Assembly (NCBI RefSeq): GCF_900117415.1
Contig: NZ_FPEI01000006.1
Span: forward strand, 434,001-498,000
DNA length: 64,000 nucleotides
Direction: 5' to 3'
From: Hyphomicrobium sp. CS1BSMeth3
Lineage (GTDB): Bacteria; Pseudomonadota; Alphaproteobacteria; Rhizobiales; Hyphomicrobiaceae
Shown: positions 34,044 through 44,961 of the stretch, in pieces
How the letters are laid out: each line of letters opens with the position of its first letter
How positions within the stretch are numbered: position 1 is the first letter of the stretch
Made by a program: the position numbers and the translations under genes
Notes under the pieces: model-generated
Told to the model about the DNA's origin: nothing
Databases searched by the model: none
What the model saw: the letters and a program-made list of their open reading frames with translations, nothing else

Positions 34044-34136
34044 CTATTACTGATTTTCGACAATCGTATTGAGCGCGAGGGCTGCCTGTCAATGGCAGAT
34101 CTCGCGCAATGCGCTCAATTCGGAGGCAGAGGTTCA

Positions 34137-34961
34137 ATGGAAGACGGCAAGAGCGCACCGCTCGAGCGCTACCTCGCTGTGCTCGAGGCGGTGGCGACTG
34201 CATCAAAGGCGCTCAGCCTGTCGGAGATCGCCGAGCGCTGCGCGTTGCCCGTCGGGTCGACGCATCGACTGCTTCAGAATCTTCAGGGCTCAGGCCTGGT
34301 GACGACGGATGGCACGAGGCGCAAGGACTACCGTCTGGGCGAGCGCCTTCTTCGCCTTCTGCACGCGGGCTCTGATGATGCCTGGCTGAAAATCTCCGTT
34401 CAGCCGGTCCTGGATGCGCTGGCGAATGAATTCGGCGAAACGTGCTTCGTCACGCGCCTCGTCGGGCATCAGGTCATATCGCTCGCGTGGGCTGTGCCGA
34501 CGTCCGGTTTGCAGGGCTATGTATTTCCGGGGCACATCATGCCTCCTCACGCCGCTGCATCGGCCAAGGCGATCTTGGCATTTCAGCCGAAAAGTGTGGT
34601 CGACAAGGCTCTCGACGTCGTTCTTCCAAAGCTCACGCCAAGAACGAAGGTTACGCGGACGAGCATTGATCGCGAGCACGCGCGTGTGCGCGCATCTGGT
34701 TACGCAACGTGTCTCAACGAGATGGAACCGGGCGTCGGGGCTCTCGCCATTCCCATCGAGGTGCCCGAGGTGGGAGTCATGTACAGCCTCGGCGTATCCA
34801 GTCTTATCGATCGTCTGAACCGACGCTCTCTCGAGGTGACCATCGAGAGAATGCGGATTGCCGCGGATGGCCTGTCGCCCGCGCTCGGCGATCTATCGTC
34901 GAGGTCTCCGATGCGCCCGCCTCCGCGGAGGTCGCCGGGCGCATATTCTGCGAAGGGATGA
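34137..34961 (+). CDS. IclR family transcriptional regulator
   Basis: The 274-residue protein has an N-terminal winged helix (about 8-70) with LSLSEIAERCALPVGSTHRL and LQNLQGSGLV, and a C-terminal IclR effector domain (about 85-250) with MPPHAAASAKAILAF and GYATCLNEMEPGVGALAIPI. The start at 34137 has AGAGG five bases upstream; an ATG at 34092 is also in frame. It likely controls the divergent transport and catabolic operon, with the transported acid or its CoA ester as signal. Confidence 0.9.
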   Translation: MEDGKSAPLERYLAVLEAVATASKALSLSEIAERCALPVGSTHRLLQNLQGSGLVTTDGTRRKDYRLGERLLRLLHAGSDDAWLKISVQPVLDALANEFGETCFVTRLVGHQVISLAWAVPTSGLQGYVFPGHIMPPHAAASAKAILAFQPKSVVDKALDVVLPKLTPRTKVTRTSIDREHARVRASGYATCLNEMEPGVGALAIPIEVPEVGVMYSLGVSSLIDRLNRRSLEVTIERMRIAADGLSPALGDLSSRSPMRPPPRRSPGAYSAKG

Positions 34962-35398: not shown

Positions 35399-36811
35399 AT
35401 GCCAAGTGTCTCCACCCCTCAGCAGGCCGAGGAGCTCAAAGGGCTCACGATGCGCTTTGCCGAGCATGTCGCCGGCCTGAAGTACGAGAACATCCCCGAC
35501 GACGTCGCGCACAAGGCGAAGCTGATCCTGCGCGATGGCGTCGGCAACGAGATTGCGGCATCGGCGATCAGCGAGCCCGCCAACAAGGTCATCGAGCTCG
35601 TGAAGGAGTGGGGCGGGGCGCCCCAGAGCACGATCATCGGTCACGGCATGAAGGTGCCGACGCCGAATGCCGCTCTGGTCAACGCCATGATGGGGCACGG
35701 CATCGAGCTCGACGACGCGCACGGCACGGGCTTGATCAAGGCCGGCTCGGTGCTCGTGCCGGCCGCCTTCGCCGTCGCTGAGATTTCGGGCGCATCGGGC
35801 AAGGATGTCGTGGCGGGTGTTGTCGCCGGCTATGATGTCGCCGTCCGCATTGCCAAGGCCATCAATCCCGGCCATCGCCAGCGCGGCTATCACACGACCG
35901 GCACTGTTTCGGCCATCGGCGCGGCGGCTATGAGCGCGAAGCTGCTCGGCGGCAATGCCGAGCAGATTGCGTGGGCGATCGGCCTTGCCTGCATGCAGTC
36001 GGCGGGCATCCAGTCCTATCTCGACGACCCCTGCATGGCGAAGCCGTTCAGCCCGGGCAAGTCGGCCTACAACGGCGTGCTTGCCGCCATCATGGCGAGC
36101 CGCGGATTCAGCGGTCCCAAGAAGGTGCTCGAGTCGCGTGAAGGCTTCCTCAATGCCTTCACCGACAGCGTCCGGCTTGACGACCTGCAGGACAATCTCG
36201 GCAAGCACTTCGCCATCATGGAAGTCGGCTTTAAGCCGCACGCCGCGTGCCGCTATGCGCATGGGCCGATCGATCTGGCGCAGGATGCTTATCGTCTCGA
36301 TGGCGTCCGTCTCGACAATGTTGATCGCGTCACCGTCCACATGAGCAAGCTCGCGATCCGCCAGGCCTCGAAGCCGGTCTGCACAAACCTCAACGCGGCG
36401 ATGGGCAGCACGCAGTTCAGCGTCGCGCTCTCGCTCGCATCGGGCGGCAATGGCCTCAAAGAATACTGGGACGGCTACAAGCAGTCCGATGTCCACTCGG
36501 GCATGAACAAGGTCGAGCTGCGCGAGGAGCCGGCCTATGGTCTCGGCGGCCGCCAGGCGCAGATCGACATCGCGCTCAAGGACGGGCGCAAGGTGACCCG
36601 CAGCTCGGAAGAGCCCAAGGGCGAGCCGAGCAATCCGCTCGCACCCGCCGAGCTCGAAGCCAAGTTCCTCGCCATGACCACGATGGTGATCGACGAGAAG
36701 CAGGCGCGGAAGGTCAGCGACCTCGTGATGTCGCTCGAGCGCCAGCCGAAGGCCGACGTGATCCCGCAGGCAACGGTGGTGGACAATGGCCCTTCGCTTC
36801 GCGCCGCGTGA
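35399..36811 (+). CDS. MmgE/PrpD family protein
   Basis: The 470-residue protein belongs to the MmgE/PrpD family, which includes 2-methylcitrate dehydratase, cis-aconitate decarboxylase and iminodisuccinate epimerase. Visible landmarks are the helical first domain with NAMMGHGIELDDAHGTG (about 95-111), RGYHTTGTVSAIGAAAMSAK (from 162) and KPHAACRYAHGPIDLA in the second domain. It is probably a cytoplasmic dehydratase, decarboxylase or epimerase of a di- or tricarboxylic acid. The next gene encodes PrpF, so an aconitate-like intermediate is likely. GGAG lies 9 bases upstream of the ATG. It overlaps the prpF-like gene by 26 bases. Confidence 0.88.
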   Translation: MPSVSTPQQAEELKGLTMRFAEHVAGLKYENIPDDVAHKAKLILRDGVGNEIAASAISEPANKVIELVKEWGGAPQSTIIGHGMKVPTPNAALVNAMMGHGIELDDAHGTGLIKAGSVLVPAAFAVAEISGASGKDVVAGVVAGYDVAVRIAKAINPGHRQRGYHTTGTVSAIGAAAMSAKLLGGNAEQIAWAIGLACMQSAGIQSYLDDPCMAKPFSPGKSAYNGVLAAIMASRGFSGPKKVLESREGFLNAFTDSVRLDDLQDNLGKHFAIMEVGFKPHAACRYAHGPIDLAQDAYRLDGVRLDNVDRVTVHMSKLAIRQASKPVCTNLNAAMGSTQFSVALSLASGGNGLKEYWDGYKQSDVHSGMNKVELREEPAYGLGGRQAQIDIALKDGRKVTRSSEEPKGEPSNPLAPAELEAKFLAMTTMVIDEKQARKVSDLVMSLERQPKADVIPQATVVDNGPSLRAA

Positions 36812-38021
36812 GCAATCAGCGCCCGCAGTAACGTCGCCCGCGCTCAGCGCGGGCGACAGCGAGCAGGTCGCAATTCCCTGTGCCTTCATGCGTGGGGGCT
36901 CGAGCCGGGGCGGCTTTTTCCTGGATGCGGATCTGCCGCCGATCGGACCGCAACGCGATGCCGTCCTGCTCGCTGCCTACGGCTCGCCCGACAGCCGGCA
37001 GATCGACGGCATCGGCGGCGCCGATCCGCTGACGAGCAAGGCGGCTGTCGTGAAGCGGTCGGAGCGGCCCGACGCCGATGTCGAGTATTCCTTCTATCAA
37101 GTCGGCATCGAGCAGCCCAAGGTGTCGATCGGCGGAAGCTGCGGCAACATGCTCGCTGCCGTCGGTCCGTTCGCCATTCGCCGCGGGCTCGTGCGGGCCG
37201 TAGAGCCGGAGACGACGGTTCGCATCTATACAACCAATACGAAGCAGGTCGTCACCGCGCGCATTCCCGTTCGCAATGGCGAGCCATCCTGTGAGGGCAC
37301 CTGCAGCATCGCGGGCGTGCCCGATCCTGGCGCGGCCATACGATTGGACTTCGGCGATTGCAGCGGCGCGGTTTCCGGCAAGTTGCTGCCGACCGGCAAT
37401 GCCCGCGACAGGATCACGATCGACGATAGAGAGATCGAGGTCTCCTTCATCGATGCAGCCACCTCCTTCGTCTATGTAAGGGCATCCGACATCGGAGGCA
37501 CGGGCACGGAGACGCCGGACGAGCTGCGCGGCAATGAGCTGCTGATGGGGCGGCTGGAAAAGGTGCGCGGGTGGGCGGCGGTCGTTCTCGGATTGGTATC
37601 CAAGCCCGAGCAGGCACGCATCGAAACGCCTAACATTCCGCGCGTCATCATGATCGCGCCGCCCTCTCCCTATCGCAGCGTGAGCGGCGCCGAGATCGCC
37701 GCATCCAATGTCGACATCTGCGTCCGACAGCTCGCCATGCAGCGGCCGCACAAGGCGCTCGCGGTGACCGGGGCCGTCTGCACGGCCGTCGCAAGTGCTG
37801 TTCCCGGCTCGATCGTCGCTGAAGCCATCGGCAAGCCGGTCACGGATGTTCGCTTGGGGCATCCGAGCGGTGTCCTGCGCGTTGCTTCGCGCACGAGACG
37901 CGATGCGAATGGTGGTATTGTCATCGAGAGCGCGGAGATCGAGAGAACAGCGCGGCTCATCATGGAAGGCTCGCTGTTCATTCGACGTCGCAAGATCGAT
38001 CAACTTGCCCAAACGGCATAA
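36786..38021 (+). CDS. PrpF-like aconitate-type isomerase
   Basis: The 411-residue protein has the PrpF/DUF453 twin-domain fold resembling diaminopimelate epimerase. CAFMRGGSSRGGFF (32-45) is the family start, and a lysine at 85 (GADPLTSKAA) and a cysteine at 119 (SIGGSCGNM) match in spacing the catalytic Lys and Cys described for PrpF. Family members shift double bonds in methylaconitate, 4-oxalomesaconate or related acids. It overlaps the MmgE/PrpD gene, so the two enzymes probably act on the same carbon skeleton. No aconitase (acnD) or citrate-synthase gene (prpC) is nearby, which argues against the ordinary methylcitrate cycle. Confidence 0.88.
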   Translation: MALRFAPREQSAPAVTSPALSAGDSEQVAIPCAFMRGGSSRGGFFLDADLPPIGPQRDAVLLAAYGSPDSRQIDGIGGADPLTSKAAVVKRSERPDADVEYSFYQVGIEQPKVSIGGSCGNMLAAVGPFAIRRGLVRAVEPETTVRIYTTNTKQVVTARIPVRNGEPSCEGTCSIAGVPDPGAAIRLDFGDCSGAVSGKLLPTGNARDRITIDDREIEVSFIDAATSFVYVRASDIGGTGTETPDELRGNELLMGRLEKVRGWAAVVLGLVSKPEQARIETPNIPRVIMIAPPSPYRSVSGAEIAASNVDICVRQLAMQRPHKALAVTGAVCTAVASAVPGSIVAEAIGKPVTDVRLGHPSGVLRVASRTRRDANGGIVIESAEIERTARLIMEGSLFIRRRKIDQLAQTA

Positions 38022-38032
38022 GGACGGCCGAA

Positions 38033-38839
38033 ATGAATACGAGGGAGCATCAGCGCGAATTCGCCCCACCGCCACGGAGCGCAAAGCCGCGCAAGCGCGG
38101 CCTGACCGCGGTGATCGACTATGGCCCGGACGGCTTCGGCTGGACGGGCGAGCGCGGCATTGCCGACATGCTCGATTGTGCGGCCGAGTACATCGACTTC
38201 GCCAAGATCTACGCGATGAATGCGCTGCTCATCCCAAAGCCGGTGATCCAGCGCATCATCAAGCTCTACCGCGACGCGGGCGTGCACTGCTACGCGGGCG
38301 GGATCCTCTTCGAGTACGCCTACCAGCGCAATGAAGTGGATCTCTATTGCGATCACGTGCGGAAGATCGGTCTCAACGCCGTGGAGATCTCCGAGAATTA
38401 CGTCACGCTCAACGACAACGAGCGGCTATCCTACATAGATCGCTTCCAGAGCTTGGGCCTGTCGGTCATCTACGAGTTCGGCCGCAAGAACCCCGAGCAG
38501 CCCCTGCGTGTCGACGATATCGAGGCCCTGATCACCGCGATGACCAATCGCGGTGTCGACCACGTCATCGTCGAGCAGTCCGAGATCGATATGGCTGCAA
38601 GCCGCGCGCCGGAGCAGCTCAAGGCGATCGCTGCAGCGCCCTGGTTCGAGCGCATTCTCATCGAGGCCGATCCCTATCGCTTCCCCAAGCAGCATGTGGG
38701 CCTGCTGCAGGACTTCGGCATCGACGTCAATCTGGCCAACATCGCGCCCGGCCAGGCCCTGCGTCTCGAGGGCTTGCGGCGCGGGATCGGTCGCGCTGTC
38801 GACTATTCGCTGCTCGCAAAAGAGGGAGCGAAAGCTTGA
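38033..38839 (+). CDS. ComA (phosphosulfolactate synthase)-like enzyme with altered active-site motifs
   Basis: The 268-residue protein follows the whole ComA barrel: VIDYG (27-31), YIDFAKI (53-59), YAGGILFEYAY (87-97), AVEIS (116-120), YEFGRK (147-152), DVNLANI (231-237) and LEGLRRG (245-251). ComA joins sulfite to phosphoenolpyruvate to make phosphosulfolactate in coenzyme M synthesis. As I recall the methanogen enzyme, several phosphate- and PEP-contacting spots differ here: DKG is DYG, FGWGT is IYAMN, EVGKK is EFGRK, and the basic IEGRESG-type loop is VEQSEID. A changed substrate, perhaps without phosphate, or reversed C-S cleavage is plausible but inferred. It lies 11 bases after the prpF-like gene. 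Confidence 0.8.
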   Translation: MNTREHQREFAPPPRSAKPRKRGLTAVIDYGPDGFGWTGERGIADMLDCAAEYIDFAKIYAMNALLIPKPVIQRIIKLYRDAGVHCYAGGILFEYAYQRNEVDLYCDHVRKIGLNAVEISENYVTLNDNERLSYIDRFQSLGLSVIYEFGRKNPEQPLRVDDIEALITAMTNRGVDHVIVEQSEIDMAASRAPEQLKAIAAAPWFERILIEADPYRFPKQHVGLLQDFGIDVNLANIAPGQALRLEGLRRGIGRAVDYSLLAKEGAKA

Positions 38840-39744
38840 TCGAATCCAATCAGACGGATTTGCGCGAGCTGCTGCCCGATCTGATCGCGCTCGGGTTCAG
38901 CGAATACGAGGCGCGGGCCTATCTCGCGCTCTATCAGCTTCAGCCGGCAACAGCTTACGAGGTCAGCAAGCTTGCGGGGCTTCCCAAGGCCAACGCTTAT
39001 ACCGTGCTGGACAGCCTCAGCAAGAAAGAGGCGGCGCAGCCGATTTCCGAGAGCCCGGTGCGCTATGTTGCGGTCACGCCCGACGTCCTGTTCGAGCGCA
39101 TTTCCAGCGCGACCGCGAGGCGCTGCGCCAAGCTGATCAAGGCCATTCCGGTCGCGGCCCAGGCCGACGAGCGTGGCTACGTCTGGTCGATTTCCGGTGG
39201 TGATGCGATCAGCACGAAGATCGAGTCGATGATCGATGGTGCCGGCTCGCACATCTGGATCAAGGCTGCCGAGCAGAACATCATGCCTTACCGCGACGCG
39301 CTCGAACGAGCCGCGGAGCGGGGCGTCGAAGTGTTGATCATTCTGTTTGGTACGCAACTCGAGAAATTCCAGTTCGGCGGCAAATCGCGCACCTATCTGC
39401 ACGAAGGCAACGGCATTCCGGTCGGCATCGCTCACAAGCTGGTGACGATCACCGTCGACTTCGAGGAGGCGCTGGTCGCCGAAATCGAGAACCATCCGCA
39501 CGGCGCGTACACGCGCAATCGACCGATCGTCAATCTGGCCGAGTCCCTCATCCGACACGAGGTCTACTTCGCCGAGATCTTCGAGATGTTCGGCCAGCCG
39601 ATTCAGAAGACCTTCGGCACGGCCTTGATGGATCTGCGCCGCAAGTATCTTCCGCCAGCCCAAGCAGATGCGCTCGAGAGGCTGCTTGGCCTCACGTCGG
39701 ACACAAAAACCCCGGGCAAGAAGGGCAAGGAAAAGATCACATGA
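38836..39744 (+). CDS. TrmB family transcriptional regulator
   Basis: The 302-residue protein has an N-terminal TrmB winged helix (about 15-90) with LGFSEYEARAYLALYQLQPA, TAYEVSKLAGLPKANAY and TVLDSLSKK, and a C-terminal domain (about 110-270) resembling the PLD-like effector domain of sugar-sensing TrmB proteins. No ATG or GTG fits; the start is a TTG at 38836, whose TTGA overlaps the stop of the ComA-like gene, with GAGGGAG upstream. TrmB proteins are common in archaea and sparse in alphaproteobacteria. Placed inside the operon, it probably controls that operon. Confidence 0.85.
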   Translation: MIESNQTDLRELLPDLIALGFSEYEARAYLALYQLQPATAYEVSKLAGLPKANAYTVLDSLSKKEAAQPISESPVRYVAVTPDVLFERISSATARRCAKLIKAIPVAAQADERGYVWSISGGDAISTKIESMIDGAGSHIWIKAAEQNIMPYRDALERAAERGVEVLIILFGTQLEKFQFGGKSRTYLHEGNGIPVGIAHKLVTITVDFEEALVAEIENHPHGAYTRNRPIVNLAESLIRHEVYFAEIFEMFGQPIQKTFGTALMDLRRKYLPPAQADALERLLGLTSDTKTPGKKGKEKIT

Positions 39745-41255
39745 GTACCGACGAGCTGGAATACGACGTCATCGTAGTGGGGGCTGGCAATGCGGCTGCG
39801 TGTGCTGCGATCTCGGCGCGCAACAACGGCGCCAGCGTGCTCATACTGGAGGCAGCCCCCGAAGCTGAGCGCGGCGGCAACTCCACCTATACTGCCGGCG
39901 CCATGCGCTACACTTTCGATGGCGTCGATGACGTTCTGTCCCTGGTCCCTGATGTCGACGCCGACACGCTCGCATTGACCGACTTCGGCAGCTACACCGT
40001 CGACCAGTTCTTCGACGACATGTTCCGTGTCACGCAGTACCGCACGGACCCCGTGCTGTGCGAGCTGCTGGTGAGGAACAGCCTCCCGACACTTCAATGG
40101 ATGCGCAAGCAGGGCGTTCGCTTCCAGACGAGCCACGGCCGCCAGGCTTACAAGGTCAATGGGCGCTTCCAGTTCTGGGGCGGCCTCAGCGTCGAGGTAT
40201 GGGGTGGTGGCCCCGGTCTCGTCGATATGCTGCTGAGTTCCGCTGAGCGGAAGGGCGTGCAGATCCTCTACGAGACGGCGGCGGTGTCGCTCATCAAGGA
40301 CAACGACGGCGTCCATGGCGTGCACGTCAGCCACCGCGGCCGGGAGCGCGACCTCTACTGCAGAGCCGTGGTGCTCGCCTGTGGGGGCTTCGAATCCAAT
40401 GCGGAGATGCGGGCGCGCTATCTCGGCCCGAACTGGGATCTCGCCAAGGTGCGCGGCACGCGCTTCAACACCGGGGGCGGCATCAAGATGGCGCTCGACG
40501 TCGGCGCCATGGCCTGCGGACATTGGTCGGGGGCCCACGCCGTCGGCTGGGATCAGAATGCGCCGACGTTCGGCGATCTGGCTGTCGGCGACGCATTCCA
40601 GAAGCACAGCTATCCGTTCGGCATCATGATCAATGCGCGCGGCGAGCGCTTCGTCGACGAAGGCGCCGACTTCCGTAATTACACCTATGCGAAATACGGG
40701 AGTGCCATCCTGGCTCAGCCGGGGCAGTTTGCTTGGCAGGTGTTCGACAGCAAGGTCATCCCCATGCTCCGGGACGAGTACCGCATACGGCAGATCACCA
40801 AGGTCTCTTCCGATACGCTGGAGGGGCTTGTCGATCAGATGGAGGGCGTCGACCGCGATGGTTTTCTGCGCACGATTGCCGAGTTCAACGCGGCAGTGAA
40901 AAAGGACGTCCCGTTCAATCCGAATATCAAGGACGGCCGCGCTGCTGAAGGCGTTGCGCCGCGCAAGTCGAACTGGGCCAACACGATCGATGCAGGTCCC
41001 TTCGAAGCCTATGCCGTGACGTGCGGTGTGACTTTCACATTCGGCGGCGTGAAGATCGGCCCCGACGGCCAGGTGCATGACACGGCCGATCAGCCGATCC
41101 CCGGCCTCTTCGCGGCGGGCGAAATGGTCGGCGGCCTCTTCTTTCACAACTATCCCGGCGGCACCGGCCTCACGTCGGGCGCGGTGTTCGGCAAGATCGC
41201 AGGTGAAGGCGCTGCGGCCGCAGCCGCTGTGAACAAGAGCCGCTCAGCGGCCTGA
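39741..41255 (+). CDS. FAD-dependent dehydrogenase, TcuA/fumarate-reductase flavoprotein type
   Basis: The 504-residue flavoprotein has an N-terminal FAD-binding motif VVGAGNAAACAAISARNNGA (13-32), GGNSTYTAGAMRYTF, a capping domain, and a C-terminal FAD segment PIPGLFAAGEMVGGLFFHNY with GGTGLTSGAVFG. It most resembles tricarballylate dehydrogenase TcuA, which makes cis-aconitate, but the wider family also includes fumarate and urocanate reductases and ketosteroid dehydrogenases. In this operon it could introduce the double bond that the PrpF-like protein then moves. Its electron-transfer partner (TcuB) is not present. The start overlaps the TrmB stop by four bases. Confidence 0.85.
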   Translation: MSTDELEYDVIVVGAGNAAACAAISARNNGASVLILEAAPEAERGGNSTYTAGAMRYTFDGVDDVLSLVPDVDADTLALTDFGSYTVDQFFDDMFRVTQYRTDPVLCELLVRNSLPTLQWMRKQGVRFQTSHGRQAYKVNGRFQFWGGLSVEVWGGGPGLVDMLLSSAERKGVQILYETAAVSLIKDNDGVHGVHVSHRGRERDLYCRAVVLACGGFESNAEMRARYLGPNWDLAKVRGTRFNTGGGIKMALDVGAMACGHWSGAHAVGWDQNAPTFGDLAVGDAFQKHSYPFGIMINARGERFVDEGADFRNYTYAKYGSAILAQPGQFAWQVFDSKVIPMLRDEYRIRQITKVSSDTLEGLVDQMEGVDRDGFLRTIAEFNAAVKKDVPFNPNIKDGRAAEGVAPRKSNWANTIDAGPFEAYAVTCGVTFTFGGVKIGPDGQVHDTADQPIPGLFAAGEMVGGLFFHNYPGGTGLTSGAVFGKIAGEGAAAAAAVNKSRSAA

Positions 41256-41284
41256 AATTGGCACTCATCTAGGGAAGAAGCACC

Positions 41285-42277
41285 ATGAGCCTCAAAGGAT
41301 TCGGTTGGTTGAAGTGGAGCGCATTGGCGGCGATGGTCGCCGTCGGTGGCACGCTCGCGCACGCGACGACGGGATCGATGTCGATCCGAGTTGGACTGCA
41401 GTCTGTTCCGCCGGACGAAGTCTACACGGCGAAGGACTGGGGCGCCCGCTACAAGCTGAAGGTGGAGCACGGATCCTTCAGCTCCGGCGCCGACATTCTC
41501 AAGGCCTTCATCGCCGGGCGCGTGGACATCGGCAACGGCGGATCTGGTCGCCTCGTCACGATGGCCGCGCAGCAGCCGGAGCTCTTCTACATCGTCGCGG
41601 CCAACCAGTACGGCGGTGATCGCTACGGCGTCATGGTCGCCAAGGATTCGCCGATCAAGACGGTGCAGGAGCTCAAGGGCAAGAAGGTCGGCGCGGTGAC
41701 CGGCTCGGGCACCTACAGCACCTTTCGCGTCTATCTCGACAACAATGGCCTCAAGGAAAGCGATTTCCAGATCGTCAACATGAAGGTCGAGGATCTGCGC
41801 GCAGCCGTGCAGCAGGGTATCATCGATGGTGCAGTGGCCTGGGAACCTCATGTCGCGATCGCGGAGACCATGGGCGTGGTCAGGCGCATTCAGTCGATGG
41901 CCGGCGTGAACGACAGCCCGAACTTCGTCCTCGTCAATCGCAAGTTCGCCGACGCCAATCCGGAGGCTGTTGCTCGCTACATCGCCACCCTGATCGATCT
42001 CGGGGAGCTGATCAGCAGCAATCCGCAGGAGGCCGCGAAGCTGGCCGCCGGCCAAATCAGCAAGAAGGGCGTCTCCATCAATCCCAAGGCGCTCGAGCTC
42101 TCATTTACGCGGATCAAGATGGATCCGAAGGTGACCGATGCGCTGCTGGCCGAGCTCATTCCGGTGGCGGAGTCCATGAAGGGCGCCAGTAAGATCGGTG
42201 CTGTTCCGGATTTCAAGAAGCTCGTGCGCATGGACTTCTACGAGCAGGCCGTCAAACTGAGGCAGGCATCCCGCTAG
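41285..42277 (+). CDS. ABC transporter binding protein, SsuA/TauA/NMT1 type
   Basis: The 330-residue protein has a signal peptide (about 1-28, ...GGTLAHAT) and a type II binding fold with SSGADILKAFIAGRVDIGNG and GKKVGAVTGSGTYSTFRVYL. Relatives bind sulfonates, taurine, nitrate, phthalate or thiamine precursors. The ligand should be the substrate of the operon's enzymes. The stop codon TAG is itself part of a CTAGTGT palindromic repeat that fills the gap to the permease gene. GGGAAG precedes the ATG. Confidence 0.87.
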   Translation: MSLKGFGWLKWSALAAMVAVGGTLAHATTGSMSIRVGLQSVPPDEVYTAKDWGARYKLKVEHGSFSSGADILKAFIAGRVDIGNGGSGRLVTMAAQQPELFYIVAANQYGGDRYGVMVAKDSPIKTVQELKGKKVGAVTGSGTYSTFRVYLDNNGLKESDFQIVNMKVEDLRAAVQQGIIDGAVAWEPHVAIAETMGVVRRIQSMAGVNDSPNFVLVNRKFADANPEAVARYIATLIDLGELISSNPQEAAKLAAGQISKKGVSINPKALELSFTRIKMDPKVTDALLAELIPVAESMKGASKIGAVPDFKKLVRMDFYEQAVKLRQASR

Positions 42278-42351
42278 TGTCCCGATTCCGAAGTTCGCCA
42301 CACCTCGATGCTGGTGTTGCGAGCGAACTTCGGAATCAAAAGGGACACTAG
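42274..42351. repeat. CTAGTGTCCC palindromic repeat, copy next to the binding-protein stop codon
   Basis: CTAGTGTCCC plus GATTCCGAAGTTCGC on the left pair with GCGAACTTCGGAATC and GGGACACTAG on the right, with four extra bases (aaaa) between the two right-hand blocks. This makes a 78-base palindromic element with a 24-base centre. The TAG of the left end is the stop codon of the binding-protein gene. Confidence 0.75.
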
Positions 42352-42366
42352 AAATCATCCACTTGC

Positions 42367-42440
42367 CAGTGTGATTCAGATCGAGAAATTCGCTCTATAC
42401 CGTGCCCGAGATGTGGCGAATTTCTCGATCATCACACTAG
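42367..42440. repeat. CTAGTGTGAT palindromic repeat, second element
   Basis: CAGTGTGATTCAGATCGAGA and following AATTCGC pair with GCGAATTTCTCGATCATCACACTAG, again an imperfect palindrome of about 74 bases ending in ACACTAG. It follows the first element by 15 bases. The outer ends and the ...TTCGC inner ends resemble the neighbouring element, but the middle differs, so they look like two members of one family. Confidence 0.7.
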
Positions 42441-42462
42441 GGTGCCTTGAGGTCCTAGAACC

Positions 42463-43320
42463 GTGACAGCGAGCAGAACTGCGGGCGTCCCGCGCCAGAA
42501 GGGCGGGCCATCTGCCTCACCGAGCCAGATCGTCGCGTTTGTGACGTTCATGCTCCCGATTGGCGCCCTGCTTCTCTTTTGGGAAGGCGTGGTCCGGTTT
42601 GGCCTGGCGGATGCGACCATCCTGCCCGCACCATCGATGATCGTGGTGCGCGCATGGGAGCTTCTGAACCCAGCCAAGGCCGAGCGAAGCCTGCTGCTCG
42701 TGCACATTGGCGTGAGCTTGTGGAGGGCACTTGCGGCGTTCGTGCTCGCCTGTCTCGTGGCCATTCCGCTCGGCTTCGTGCTTGGTCTCAGCACGGGGAC
42801 CTATCGCGCGCTGTCTCCCTTGCTCAGTCTCCTGCTGCCGTTGCCGGCCGTCGCCTGGACGCCGATCTTTCTCGTTGCTTTCGGACAAGGCGATCTGACA
42901 ATCATCGGCGTCTGCTTCCTCGGCGCGTTCTTCCCAGTGCTCTACAGCACCATCCAGGGCGTGCGTGGCATCGGCGTCCACGCGATCTGGGTCGTGCAGA
43001 GCATGGGCGCTGGACCGCTGGACCTCTTCAGGCGCGTGCTTCTGCCCGGTGCGCTTCCAGCGCTCATCTCCGGTCTCAAGCTCGGCATGGCTCATTCCTG
43101 GCGTACGCTCGTTGCGGCTGAGATGCTTGCCGCGCTGAGCTATGGCCTCGGCTACATGATCTTTGCCGCGCGCTCCTACATGGACGTCTCGACCATGTTC
43201 GTTGGCATCGTGTGCCTGGCGGTCATTGGGCTGCTCATCGAGCACGTGATCTTCGGCACGCTGGAAAAAATGACAGTGGCGCGCTGGCACAGCAGCGGCA
43301 AGGTCAGGGGGACGCGATGA
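42463..43320 (+). CDS. ABC transporter permease, SsuC/TauC type (first)
   Basis: The 285-residue permease has about six helices and the EAA loop near QSMGAGPLDLFRRVLLPGALPALISGLKLG, as in SsuC/TauC. It starts at GTG with GAGGT nine bases upstream. Its stop overlaps the second permease gene by four bases. Two different permeases instead of the usual homodimer suggest a heterodimeric channel. Confidence 0.88.
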   Translation: MTASRTAGVPRQKGGPSASPSQIVAFVTFMLPIGALLLFWEGVVRFGLADATILPAPSMIVVRAWELLNPAKAERSLLLVHIGVSLWRALAAFVLACLVAIPLGFVLGLSTGTYRALSPLLSLLLPLPAVAWTPIFLVAFGQGDLTIIGVCFLGAFFPVLYSTIQGVRGIGVHAIWVVQSMGAGPLDLFRRVLLPGALPALISGLKLGMAHSWRTLVAAEMLAALSYGLGYMIFAARSYMDVSTMFVGIVCLAVIGLLIEHVIFGTLEKMTVARWHSSGKVRGTR

Positions 43321-44156
43321 GTGCTGCCGACCTTGCTGGCGCGAAGCCGCTCTCCGGAGAGCGCGCGGGCGCGCTTCTGCGCAACATCATCACGCGCTCC
43401 GGCGTCATCGTGACCTTGCTGATGCTGTGGGAAGTCGCCGCGCGACTTGGCTGGATCAACACGTTTCTGTTTCCGGCGCCGTCCAACATCGCAGCGACCA
43501 TCTGGACGCAATCGGGGCCGGACGGCAGTCCGCCCTATGCGATGCCGATGCACGTGCTGCGCAGCATGATCCGGCTTCTGGCCGGCATAGCGCTGGCCGT
43601 TGTCATCGGCACGGTATTGGGCGTTCTGATCGGCATGACGCGCTGGGCGCGTATGCTATTCCAGCCGCTCATCAGCATTTTCATGCCCGTACCGACGCTC
43701 GCATGGACACCGGTTCTTCTGCTGCTCACGGGCATCGATGACCGCACAACCATCATCGTCGTCTTCATCGCCGCGGTCTTCGAGGTGATCTACACGATCG
43801 TCGCCGGCATCGAGATGATGAACGTGAAGCTGTTCTGGGTTGCCCGCTCGATGGGCGCCTCGCGGCTGCAGATCTTCTTCCGCGTGATCATTCCGGCGAT
43901 CTTTCCTTACCTGATCACCGGCATGCGCCTCGGCACCGGCTATGCCTGGCGCGCCTTGATCGCTGCCGAAATGCTGGCGGCGAGCTCGTTCGGCCTCGGC
44001 TTCATGATCTACGATGCGTCGGAGTATATGAGCACGAACGTGATCTATGCAGGGATCATTCTCATCGCCGTGCTCGGCTATCTGCTCGAAAATGTTCTGA
44101 TCGGCCGTCTCGAGGCCGCAACAACCGAAAAATGGGGAATCCAAAGTGAGCGCTGA
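43317..44156 (+). CDS. ABC transporter permease, SsuC/TauC type (second)
   Basis: The 279-residue permease has LLMLWEVAARLGWINTFLFP at the start and the EAA loop ARSMGASRLQIFFRVIIPAIFPYLITGMRLG. It is homologous to the preceding permease and partners it. It overlaps the ATPase gene by 11 bases. Confidence 0.88.
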   Translation: MSAADLAGAKPLSGERAGALLRNIITRSGVIVTLLMLWEVAARLGWINTFLFPAPSNIAATIWTQSGPDGSPPYAMPMHVLRSMIRLLAGIALAVVIGTVLGVLIGMTRWARMLFQPLISIFMPVPTLAWTPVLLLLTGIDDRTTIIVVFIAAVFEVIYTIVAGIEMMNVKLFWVARSMGASRLQIFFRVIIPAIFPYLITGMRLGTGYAWRALIAAEMLAASSFGLGFMIYDASEYMSTNVIYAGIILIAVLGYLLENVLIGRLEAATTEKWGIQSER

Positions 44157-44961
44157 TCTGGCGAAAGTCCTTCCGATGAACGCGCGGTCGAAGCCGAAGA
44201 TCGTGGCCAAGGGCATTCAAAAGAGCTTCGGCAATGTCCTTGCCATGGAGGACGTCACGCTCTCCATCCAGGAGCGGGAGTTCGTCGCGATCATTGGCCC
44301 GAGCGGCTGCGGCAAGTCGACCTTCCTGTATTTGATTGCGGGCTTCGAGAAGCCGAGCGGCGGCGAGCTCACGATCAATGGCAACGCCATTACGGGGCCG
44401 GGGCCGGATCGCGGCGTCGTGTTCCAGGAGTTCGTGCTGTTTCCATGGCTGACAGTGCTGCGGAACATCACGCTCGGTCTCGACATTCAGGGTGTGAAGC
44501 GCGAGGAAGCCGAGGCGCGGGCCCTCAAGTGGATCCGCCTGACCGGGCTTTCAGGCTTCGAGAACGCCTATCCGTCGACGCTGTCGGGCGGCATGAAGCA
44601 GCGCGTCGCGATCGCGCGGGCATTGACGTACGATCCGGAAGTGCTGCTGCTCGATGAGCCGTTCGGCGCGCTCGACGTGCAGACCAAGAATTACATGATC
44701 CGCGACCTGCAGGACCTGTGGCAGGAAGCGAACCGGACCATCGTGATGATCACGCACAGCGTCAGTGAGGCCGTGCATATGGCGGATCGCGTGGTCGTCC
44801 TCAGCTCGCGGCCGTCTCGTGTCATCGCCGATGTCCGCATCGACGTTCCTCATCCGCGCGACCGCCGCAATCCGACGATGCATCGCTACGAGGACGAGAT
44901 CACGGCCATCCTGTCGGCCGAAGTGGACAAGGCCATGAGCCTGGAGCGACAGATCAGGTAG
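44146..44961 (+). CDS. ABC transporter ATP-binding protein, SsuB/TauB type
   Basis: The 271-residue ATPase has Walker A GPSGCGKST, VFQEFVLFPWLTVLRN, signature LSGGMKQRVAIARAL, Walker B LLLDEPFGALD and ITHSVSEAV, all as in SsuB/TauB. It starts at GTG inside the end of the second permease gene. It is the last gene of the nine-gene operon. Confidence 0.9.
   Translation: MSADLAKVLPMNARSKPKIVAKGIQKSFGNVLAMEDVTLSIQEREFVAIIGPSGCGKSTFLYLIAGFEKPSGGELTINGNAITGPGPDRGVVFQEFVLFPWLTVLRNITLGLDIQGVKREEAEARALKWIRLTGLSGFENAYPSTLSGGMKQRVAIARALTYDPEVLLLDEPFGALDVQTKNYMIRDLQDLWQEANRTIVMITHSVSEAVHMADRVVVLSSRPSRVIADVRIDVPHPRDRRNPTMHRYEDEITAILSAEVDKAMSLERQIR

Follow-up and report, generated by a model that had tools for sequence, protein, structure and literature searches.

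What might a soil bacterium import and break down with an operon that combines an SsuABC-type importer with relatives of the enzymes MmgE/PrpD, PrpF, TcuA and ComA? The question is raised by Hyphomicrobium sp. CS1BSMeth3, in which we analysed a 64,000-nucleotide stretch of contig NZ_FPEI01000006.1 (positions 434,001 to 498,000; hereafter, the window). Nine open reading frames (ORFs), all on the + strand, occupy positions 35399-44961 of the window. Their successive intergenic distances are -26, 11, -4, -4, 29, 185, -4 and -11 bp, the 185-bp gap between the genes for a substrate-binding protein (SBP) and a permease being the only one above 30 bp. ORFs and spacing agree with an earlier, sequence-only description of this DNA (hereafter, the initial annotation), which had listed nine same-strand genes with gaps below 30 bp or overlaps save one, and they support its proposal of a single operon. 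Pfam and NCBIfam searches back the family names of the nine proteins, several of which score under the NCBIfam equivalog cut-offs. The nine genes probably form an operon for the import and breakdown of one organic acid. Known enzyme families appear here in a new combination, and the operon is best described as real, conserved, uncharacterised and probably catabolic. The initial annotation knew of no described pathway with this set of enzymes, and our literature search found none, an absence that is weak because the search covered open-licence papers alone.

The gene set is conserved, yet rare and patchily distributed, and it is plasmid-borne in part. Gene sets at related loci were counted by tblastn; ORF/codon gene calls miss genes (e.g., TcuA of the Bradyrhizobium plasmid locus L007), and the TctABC, VOC and most ornithine-cyclodeaminase-like calls at related loci were made by eye. 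Afifella carries all nine genes in the same order (MmgE-PrpF-ComA-TrmB-TcuA-SBP-permease A-permease B-ATPase; 53-69% identity). In G1182, a genome from the genus of locus L014 (Bradyrhizobium), the eight non-regulatory genes keep this order and the TrmB gene (66%) lies 1.9 kb upstream, with all nine orthologues inside 12 kb. That Afifella keeps all nine genes in unchanged order and G1182 has all nine close together speaks against a chance arrangement; conservation in relatives, on which the initial annotation had made its reading depend, is found in both. On the Bradyrhizobium plasmid the eight genes are split by ~9.4 kb that include transposase and integrase genes. The Paracoccus and Cereibacter loci (L008, L018 and L017) have ComA-TcuA-SBP-permease A-permease B-ATPase, then chromate transporters, then MmgE-PrpF. 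Among the seven clade loci with wide context, all found with ComA as bait, six hold all eight non-regulatory genes, near-identical Bradyrhizobium copies being counted once and two P. versutus strains likewise. The metagenome-assembled genome G152 (87% complete) has TcuA, an isocitrate-dehydrogenase-like gene and ComA on its contig (L016/L031), where MmgE, PrpF, SBP and permeases were unmatched; PrpF of G152 lies elsewhere. Short contigs show ComA-TrmB-TcuA (L003 of G001) and PrpF-ComA-TcuA (L013), and L014 is cut at TcuA. The chromate transporters were considered as pathway-specific sulfite exporters and set aside, as they also adjoin ComA-free tcuA. By the chromate transporters of plasmid pFER3 of P. 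ferrooxidans (L057, 5314-10380), an IS21 transposase/ATPase pair stands where P. versutus has ComA-TcuA and the importer genes; MmgE-PrpF and a TrmB orthologue are still present there, and no ComA or TcuA orthologue was found within the 19 kb examined.

Close relatives of the ComA-like gene are rare in the genome samples counted, which overlap. The source genome has one copy, and 100 relatives gave five matches, the close ones being the source genome and a same-genus genome (93%, on a truncated contig). ComA was detected in 6 of 385 genomes of the class at E 1e-20 (two, the source genome and G152, at 54% or more), in 1 of 398 of the phylum at E 1e-18 (the window's own), in 2 of 295 of the family of Cereibacter at E 1e-18 (one being Cereibacter itself) and in 9 of 265 of the genus of L014 at E 1e-15. 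Eight of these nine match at 79-82%. In seven of the eight the matched stretch contains one TGA; as the L007 copy is open for 264 residues, this is in all likelihood the natural stop codon close to the C-terminus. On plasmids, 17 of 72,556 records gave hits: seven from Bradyrhizobium (81%), one from Paracoccus (55%) and nine at 22-31%. A scan of genome contigs yielded 11 loci, six at 51% or more. A phage search with Afifella ComA as the query found no relative. Since all these loci had been baited with ComA, two independent baits were run on the plasmids. Close MmgE (64-89%) occurs in nine records, eight of which also carry a close ComA, the exception being P. ferrooxidans. TcuA matched 41 records at E 1e-60; a close ComA accompanies it in all eight at 70% or more, and the other 32 TcuA records listed do not overlap with the 17 ComA records. 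On these MmgE and TcuA bait counts, the linkage of the genes seems hard to ascribe to chance. PrpF has just one or two copies in each of five clade genomes, and MmgE has 5-34 copies in five clade genomes. MmgE/PrpD genes are abundant in G152 (34 copies) and G405 (18 copies), genomes of 3.4-3.6 Mb, compared with 12 in the window's 6.0-Mb genome.

Which reaction could the ComA-like protein (38033..38839, 268 amino acids) catalyse? It has the PF02679 domain and a predicted ComA fold, a TIM barrel. The initial annotation had linked it to the joining of sulfite to phosphoenolpyruvate (PEP), and this is not supported: the protein scores 145.9 bits against the TIGR03849 equivalog (cut-off 280; an archaeal model that true bacterial ComA may also miss), falls outside the synthase clade and lacks the synthase-fixed residues. 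In a comparison of 35 ComA-family rows, not a random sample, the window clade (seven rows, support 99/95) is separate from the synthase clade (five rows, 98/97), four members of which have ComB or other coenzyme M (CoM) neighbours and one of which (L022) is of unknown context. Seventeen fixed differences distinguish the two clades, and the window protein differs at residues around the active-site rim. Phosphosulfolactate synthase (ComA, EC 4.4.1.19; PDB 1qwg; XcbB1 of Xanthobacter) thus differs from the window protein, which its ComB/CoM-linked clade excludes. Judged from its sequence, the ComA-like protein is probably not an ordinary phosphosulfolactate synthase; more likely it performs a lyase reaction, a putative elimination of sulfite or of another group, on a substrate other than that of the PEP-sulfite enzyme. 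All eight plasmid-borne clade proteins (seven Bradyrhizobium, one Paracoccus) are annotated as phosphosulfolactate synthase, a label that probably names the wrong enzyme.

The direction of this reaction bears on the operon as a whole. An anabolic or detoxifying role, in which the ComA-like enzyme would add sulfite to an imported unsaturated acid, would match the direction of ComA in CoM synthesis, where, in the part of the source available to us, ComA, ComC and ComDE work successively on sulfo-C3 acids (PMC5695019). We regard it as very improbable, as the window-clade loci examined showed no ComB or other CoM gene, whether by annotation or by sequence match, and a binding-protein importer and a dehydrogenase suit catabolism better.

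Three further enzymes accompany the lyase. The TcuA-like dehydrogenase (39741..41255, 504 amino acids), which uses flavin adenine dinucleotide, may desaturate a substituted succinate; it passes NF006130 (603 bits, cut-off 369), misses TIGR02485 (282 bits, cut-off 372.55) and has flavocytochrome c3 fumarate reductase as its closest solved structure. The PrpF-family protein (36786..38021, 411 amino acids; PF04303, 386 bits) is a putative double-bond or cis-trans isomerase. It stays below both the 4-oxalomesaconate tautomerase model NF033377 (GalD; 344.6 bits, cut-off 440) and the PrpF equivalog (283 bits, cut-off 440.55). The MmgE/PrpD-family protein (35399..36811, 470 amino acids; PF03972 2.3e-64, PF19305 2.1e-24) may hydrate the desaturated acid; it reaches 34-37 bits against the PrpD models of NCBIfam, whose cut-offs are 458-950, and is closest among solved structures to B. 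subtilis IRG1 and IDS-epimerase. The initial annotation had placed the PrpF and MmgE proteins with aconitate-type acids. The families stand, with the correction that the closest solved structure to the PrpF protein is 3-methylitaconate isomerase (3g7k, 309 bits).

Two known pathways share parts of this module. The methylcitrate cycle (PrpD/PrpF/AcnD) has the MmgE/PrpD and PrpF superfamilies in common with the operon; it differs in that the operon proteins lie far under the PrpD and PrpF equivalog cut-offs and that PrpB, PrpC and AcnD, like TcuB, had no Pfam or NCBIfam match among the nine proteins. TcuA belongs to the tcuRABC operon. Tricarballylate utilisation has in common with our operon a TcuA-like dehydrogenase that passes the NF006130 cut-off; the operon differs by lacking TcuB and TcuC (the latter also unmatched among the nine proteins) and by having an importer of the ATP-binding cassette (ABC) type and three further enzymes. 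The missing equivalogs and partner genes, prpB, prpC, acnD and tcuB included, bear out the initial annotation, which had assigned the operon neither to the methylcitrate cycle nor to known tricarballylate use. A variant tricarballylate or aconitate route, in which TcuA would make aconitate, PrpF would interconvert its cis and trans forms, MmgE would hydrate or decarboxylate and ComA would be accessory, is unlikely. The NF006130 score and the published PrpF-family aconitate isomerases (PMC11495376, available in part) fit such a route; the missed TIGR02485 cut-off and the lack of TcuB and TcuC do not. As far as the available text goes, the published trans-aconitate operon suffices with one isomerase and one importer, which would leave MmgE and ComA without a task, and the close ComA in eight of nine plasmid records with close MmgE (all except P. 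ferrooxidans) also speaks against it. On the Bradyrhizobium plasmid, a pair of genes for the alpha and beta subunits of an electron transfer flavoprotein (L007, 22405-23966) is divergent to tcuA and is a candidate electron acceptor replacing TcuB.

The importer gives a further indication of the substrate. It comprises an NMT1/SsuA-type SBP (41285..42277, 330 amino acids; PF09084), permease A of the SaoP/TauC/SsuC type (42463..43320, 285 amino acids; PF00528 1.2e-17), permease B of the TauC type (43317..44156, 279 amino acids; PF00528 1.8e-21) and an ATPase of the SaoA/NtrCD/TauB type (44146..44961, 271 amino acids; PF00005 7.2e-33). The whole is of the same ABC type as the SsuABC and TauABC alkanesulfonate/taurine systems, and the closest solved structures to the SBP, by sequence and by Foldseek, are SsuA (2x26) and TauA (6ssy). 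The initial annotation, which saw an organic-acid pathway and an importer of the SsuABC type, is supported. The known systems differ from it in that the SBP is below both cut-offs (SsuA_fam, 138 bits against 163.5; taurine_ABC_bnd, 90.5 against 304.25) and that no desulfonating oxygenase gene (SsuD, SsuE or TauD) is among the nine.

We tentatively read the operon as serving the catabolism of a sulfonated dicarboxylate, with sulfosuccinate as the single best guess, a possibility that falls short of probable. Substrate, direction and every reaction step are what we infer from the enzyme families, as follows. The SsuABC-type transporter would bring in the sulfonate. The TcuA-like flavoenzyme would desaturate the succinate backbone to sulfofumarate or sulfomaleate, the PrpF-like enzyme would move or isomerise the double bond, and MmgE/PrpD would hydrate the product to 3-sulfomalate. 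In general form, with R = SO3-, a 2-substituted succinate would be desaturated, isomerised and hydrated to a 3-substituted malate. The ComA-like enzyme would then run the synthase chemistry in reverse, with a hydroxyl group replacing the phosphate, releasing sulfite and leaving enol-oxaloacetate (oxaloacetate). TrmB would regulate the operon.

A sulfonate is favoured because ComA, ComC and ComDE handle sulfo-C3 acids (PMC5695019) and ComC stands with a putative TTT importer in bacterial sulfolactate catabolism (PMC10507020), both sources being available in part. The latter pathway consists of SlcC-ComC-SuyAB and a putative TTT importer. Like the routes considered here, it employs a dehydrogenase of the ComC type, imports an organic acid and releases sulfite with a lyase; the difference is that its lyase is SuyAB, not a ComA-like protein, and that the accessible part of that paper does not name TcuA, PrpF or MmgE.

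Further hints come from the partners of more distant ComA-like genes. At L034 of G405 the order is TcuA (66% to the window's), an isocitrate/isopropylmalate-dehydrogenase-like gene, PrpF, Ldh, PrpD and ComA (31%). The Ldh best matches L-sulfolactate dehydrogenase (271.5 bits, cut-off 500), followed by ureidoglycolate dehydrogenase (227.8). At such a locus the isocitrate-dehydrogenase-like enzyme might make sulfopyruvate and the ComC-like enzyme sulfolactate before ComA acts. At L073/L083, also of G405, ComD passes its cut-off (167.4, cut-off 147.95) and ComE misses it (200.1, cut-off 221.5), together with a TctABC-like set (called by eye), four MmgE genes, an ornithine-cyclodeaminase-like gene and ComA ~8 kb from ComE. 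The ComC-like and ComDE genes and the likeness of the SBP to SsuA and TauA lend indirect support to the initial suggestion of a perhaps sulfonated acid. The broader idea of a route for a secondary sulfonate of the sulfosuccinate type, in which the ComA barrel in reverse is an oxygen-independent desulfonating lyase acting on a hydroxylated sulfo-dicarboxylate fed by a TcuA-PrpF-MmgE module, with parallel routes via sulfopyruvate in other ComA clades (isocitrate-dehydrogenase-like, ComC-like and ComDE), is doubtful.

Several further observations concern these distant clades. At L037/L085 (G439), ComA stands with three MmgE genes, and one MmgE and two isocitrate-dehydrogenase-like genes lie 11-16 kb off on the opposite strand. 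A ComA-like gene recurs with one to four MmgE/PrpD genes, mostly with an ornithine-cyclodeaminase-like gene, at L073, L076, L078, L079, L080, L081 and L037; this cluster, which at L073 also holds ComD/ComE, may represent another uncharacterised pathway. Choline-sulfatase/arylsulfatase-family genes lie 1-7 kb from ComA-like genes at L019, L021, L035 and L039, two of which are close kin; they are below equivalog cut-offs, and that at L019 was called by eye. The second ComA-like gene of G152 (L032, 8507-10714) adjoins a fructose-1,6-bisphosphate aldolase/phosphatase called by eye. On the megaplasmid of Ruegeria pomeroyi DSS-3, a tcuA-like stretch (L051, 9001-10441; 64%, a two-piece match, no annotated gene) directly follows a gene for an Xsc-like thiamine-pyrophosphate enzyme, whose score (401, cut-off 620) is too weak for the pair to be taken as support. 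Equally left out were the tcuA of Paracoccus pantotrophus, which had no annotation, ComD/ComE-like pairs below their cut-offs in Shinella (113.5 and 116.4 bits) and at L086 (66.0 and 110.3), a TauE/SafE at L037 that was seen by eye and assigned no family by NCBIfam, and isocitrate-dehydrogenase-like or Ldh genes alone as sulfonate markers, since they occur without ComA.

A number of results weigh against a sulfonated substrate. Nothing in the operon itself is proof specific to sulfur. The window clade has no conserved sulfite-handling gene, and neither a sulfite exporter nor sulfite dehydrogenase, SuyAB, Xsc or CuyA was found among the nine genes by Pfam and NCBIfam. The strongest sulfur markers, the ComC-like and ComDE loci, are found with ComA proteins of other clades, which share 30-31% identity with the window protein. 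ComE-like genes are common: the window's genome has 15 TIGR03846 matches, all below the cut-off, and a search of six genomes gave no match that passes it. The ComC-like gene is not sulfur-specific, because malate is a further substrate of ComC enzymes and 2-hydroxyglutarate probably one of their products (PMC5695019, in its available part), and this one is far below its cut-off. SsuA-type proteins resemble Thi5, PqqT and thiamine binders as well by Foldseek; the SBP is below the SsuA_fam cut-off and its model is moderate (the best of five has a predicted local distance difference test score of 70.8, the others 38-55). Chromate transporters of the Paracoccus/Cereibacter type also occur in a Deinococcus TcuA-relative cluster with no ComA in the flanks shown, TcuA relatives stand with TctABC/TctC or LeuCD with no ComA in the flanks shown, and isocitrate-dehydrogenase-like genes (with Ldh in two of three cases) occur in ComA-free TctABC clusters, once with TauE/SafE.

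Because TcuA, PrpF, isocitrate-dehydrogenase-like and Ldh genes also occur in such sulfur-neutral TctABC/TctC clusters, a substrate free of sulfur has about the same likelihood. TcuA would desaturate a substituted di- or tricarboxylate, PrpF would isomerise and MmgE would hydrate it, and the ComA-like enzyme, taken into the pathway for a barrel that stabilises enolates, would cleave a C-C bond by a retro-aldol or retro-Claisen reaction, comparable to the final step of the methylitaconate route by dimethylmalate lyase. This is a real possibility, if not quite an even one. It fits the resemblance of PrpF to 3-methylitaconate isomerase, the TcuA relatives that have TctABC/TctC, RraA-type aldolase or LeuCD as neighbours and no ComA, and the loss of synthase-clade fixed residues from the ComA-like clade. 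It also fits the Foldseek ranking, in which C-C lyases (e.g., N-acetylneuraminate lyase) come after ComA, a ranking that any TIM barrel would be expected to give. Pointing the other way, all ComA members of known function, to our knowledge, make a C-SO3 bond, the SBP is closest to SsuA and TauA, and ComD above its cut-off and a ComC-like gene lie near other ComA-like genes.

The remaining features of the locus concern regulation and the exceptional gap. The TrmB-type transcriptional regulator (38836..39744, 302 amino acids; PF01978 1.3e-18, PF11495 2.1e-7, scanned from 38842) starts with TTG at position 38836, in a 4-base overlap with the ComA stop. By tblastn, its orthologues are present at the window, G001, Afifella, P. 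ferrooxidans and G1182 loci and were not found at L007, L013, L016, L017, L008 or L018. An IclR gene (34092-34961) lies upstream of the operon after a gap of 437 bp. It was considered as a conserved member and not counted in the gene set, because the IclR near the Bradyrhizobium locus is just 25% identical. A promoter and terminator scan gave no more signals than shuffled sequences. Two perfect inverted repeats (42284..42337 and 42379..42430, neither assigned a strand) lie in the SBP-permease gap, which the initial annotation had described as filled by palindromes. That description stands, with the correction that the first is a dispersed genome-wide repeat with no function in the pathway: it has 30 exact-arm copies in the 6.02-Mb genome, every one of them detected on both strands, against none for a reversed-pattern control, and was therefore ruled out as an operon-specific signal. 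The repeat family is a hairpin with fixed 15-nt arms and a variable 23-24-nt loop, one copy of which is inserted inside the operon.

The operon is compact and conserved and lends itself to testing. Should the sulfonate reading prove true, these bacteria would hold genes for the oxygenase-free breakdown of a secondary sulfonate that forms the core of dialkyl sulfosuccinate surfactants. If it is false, the operon would nonetheless represent a conserved pathway with a new reaction for the ComA family.

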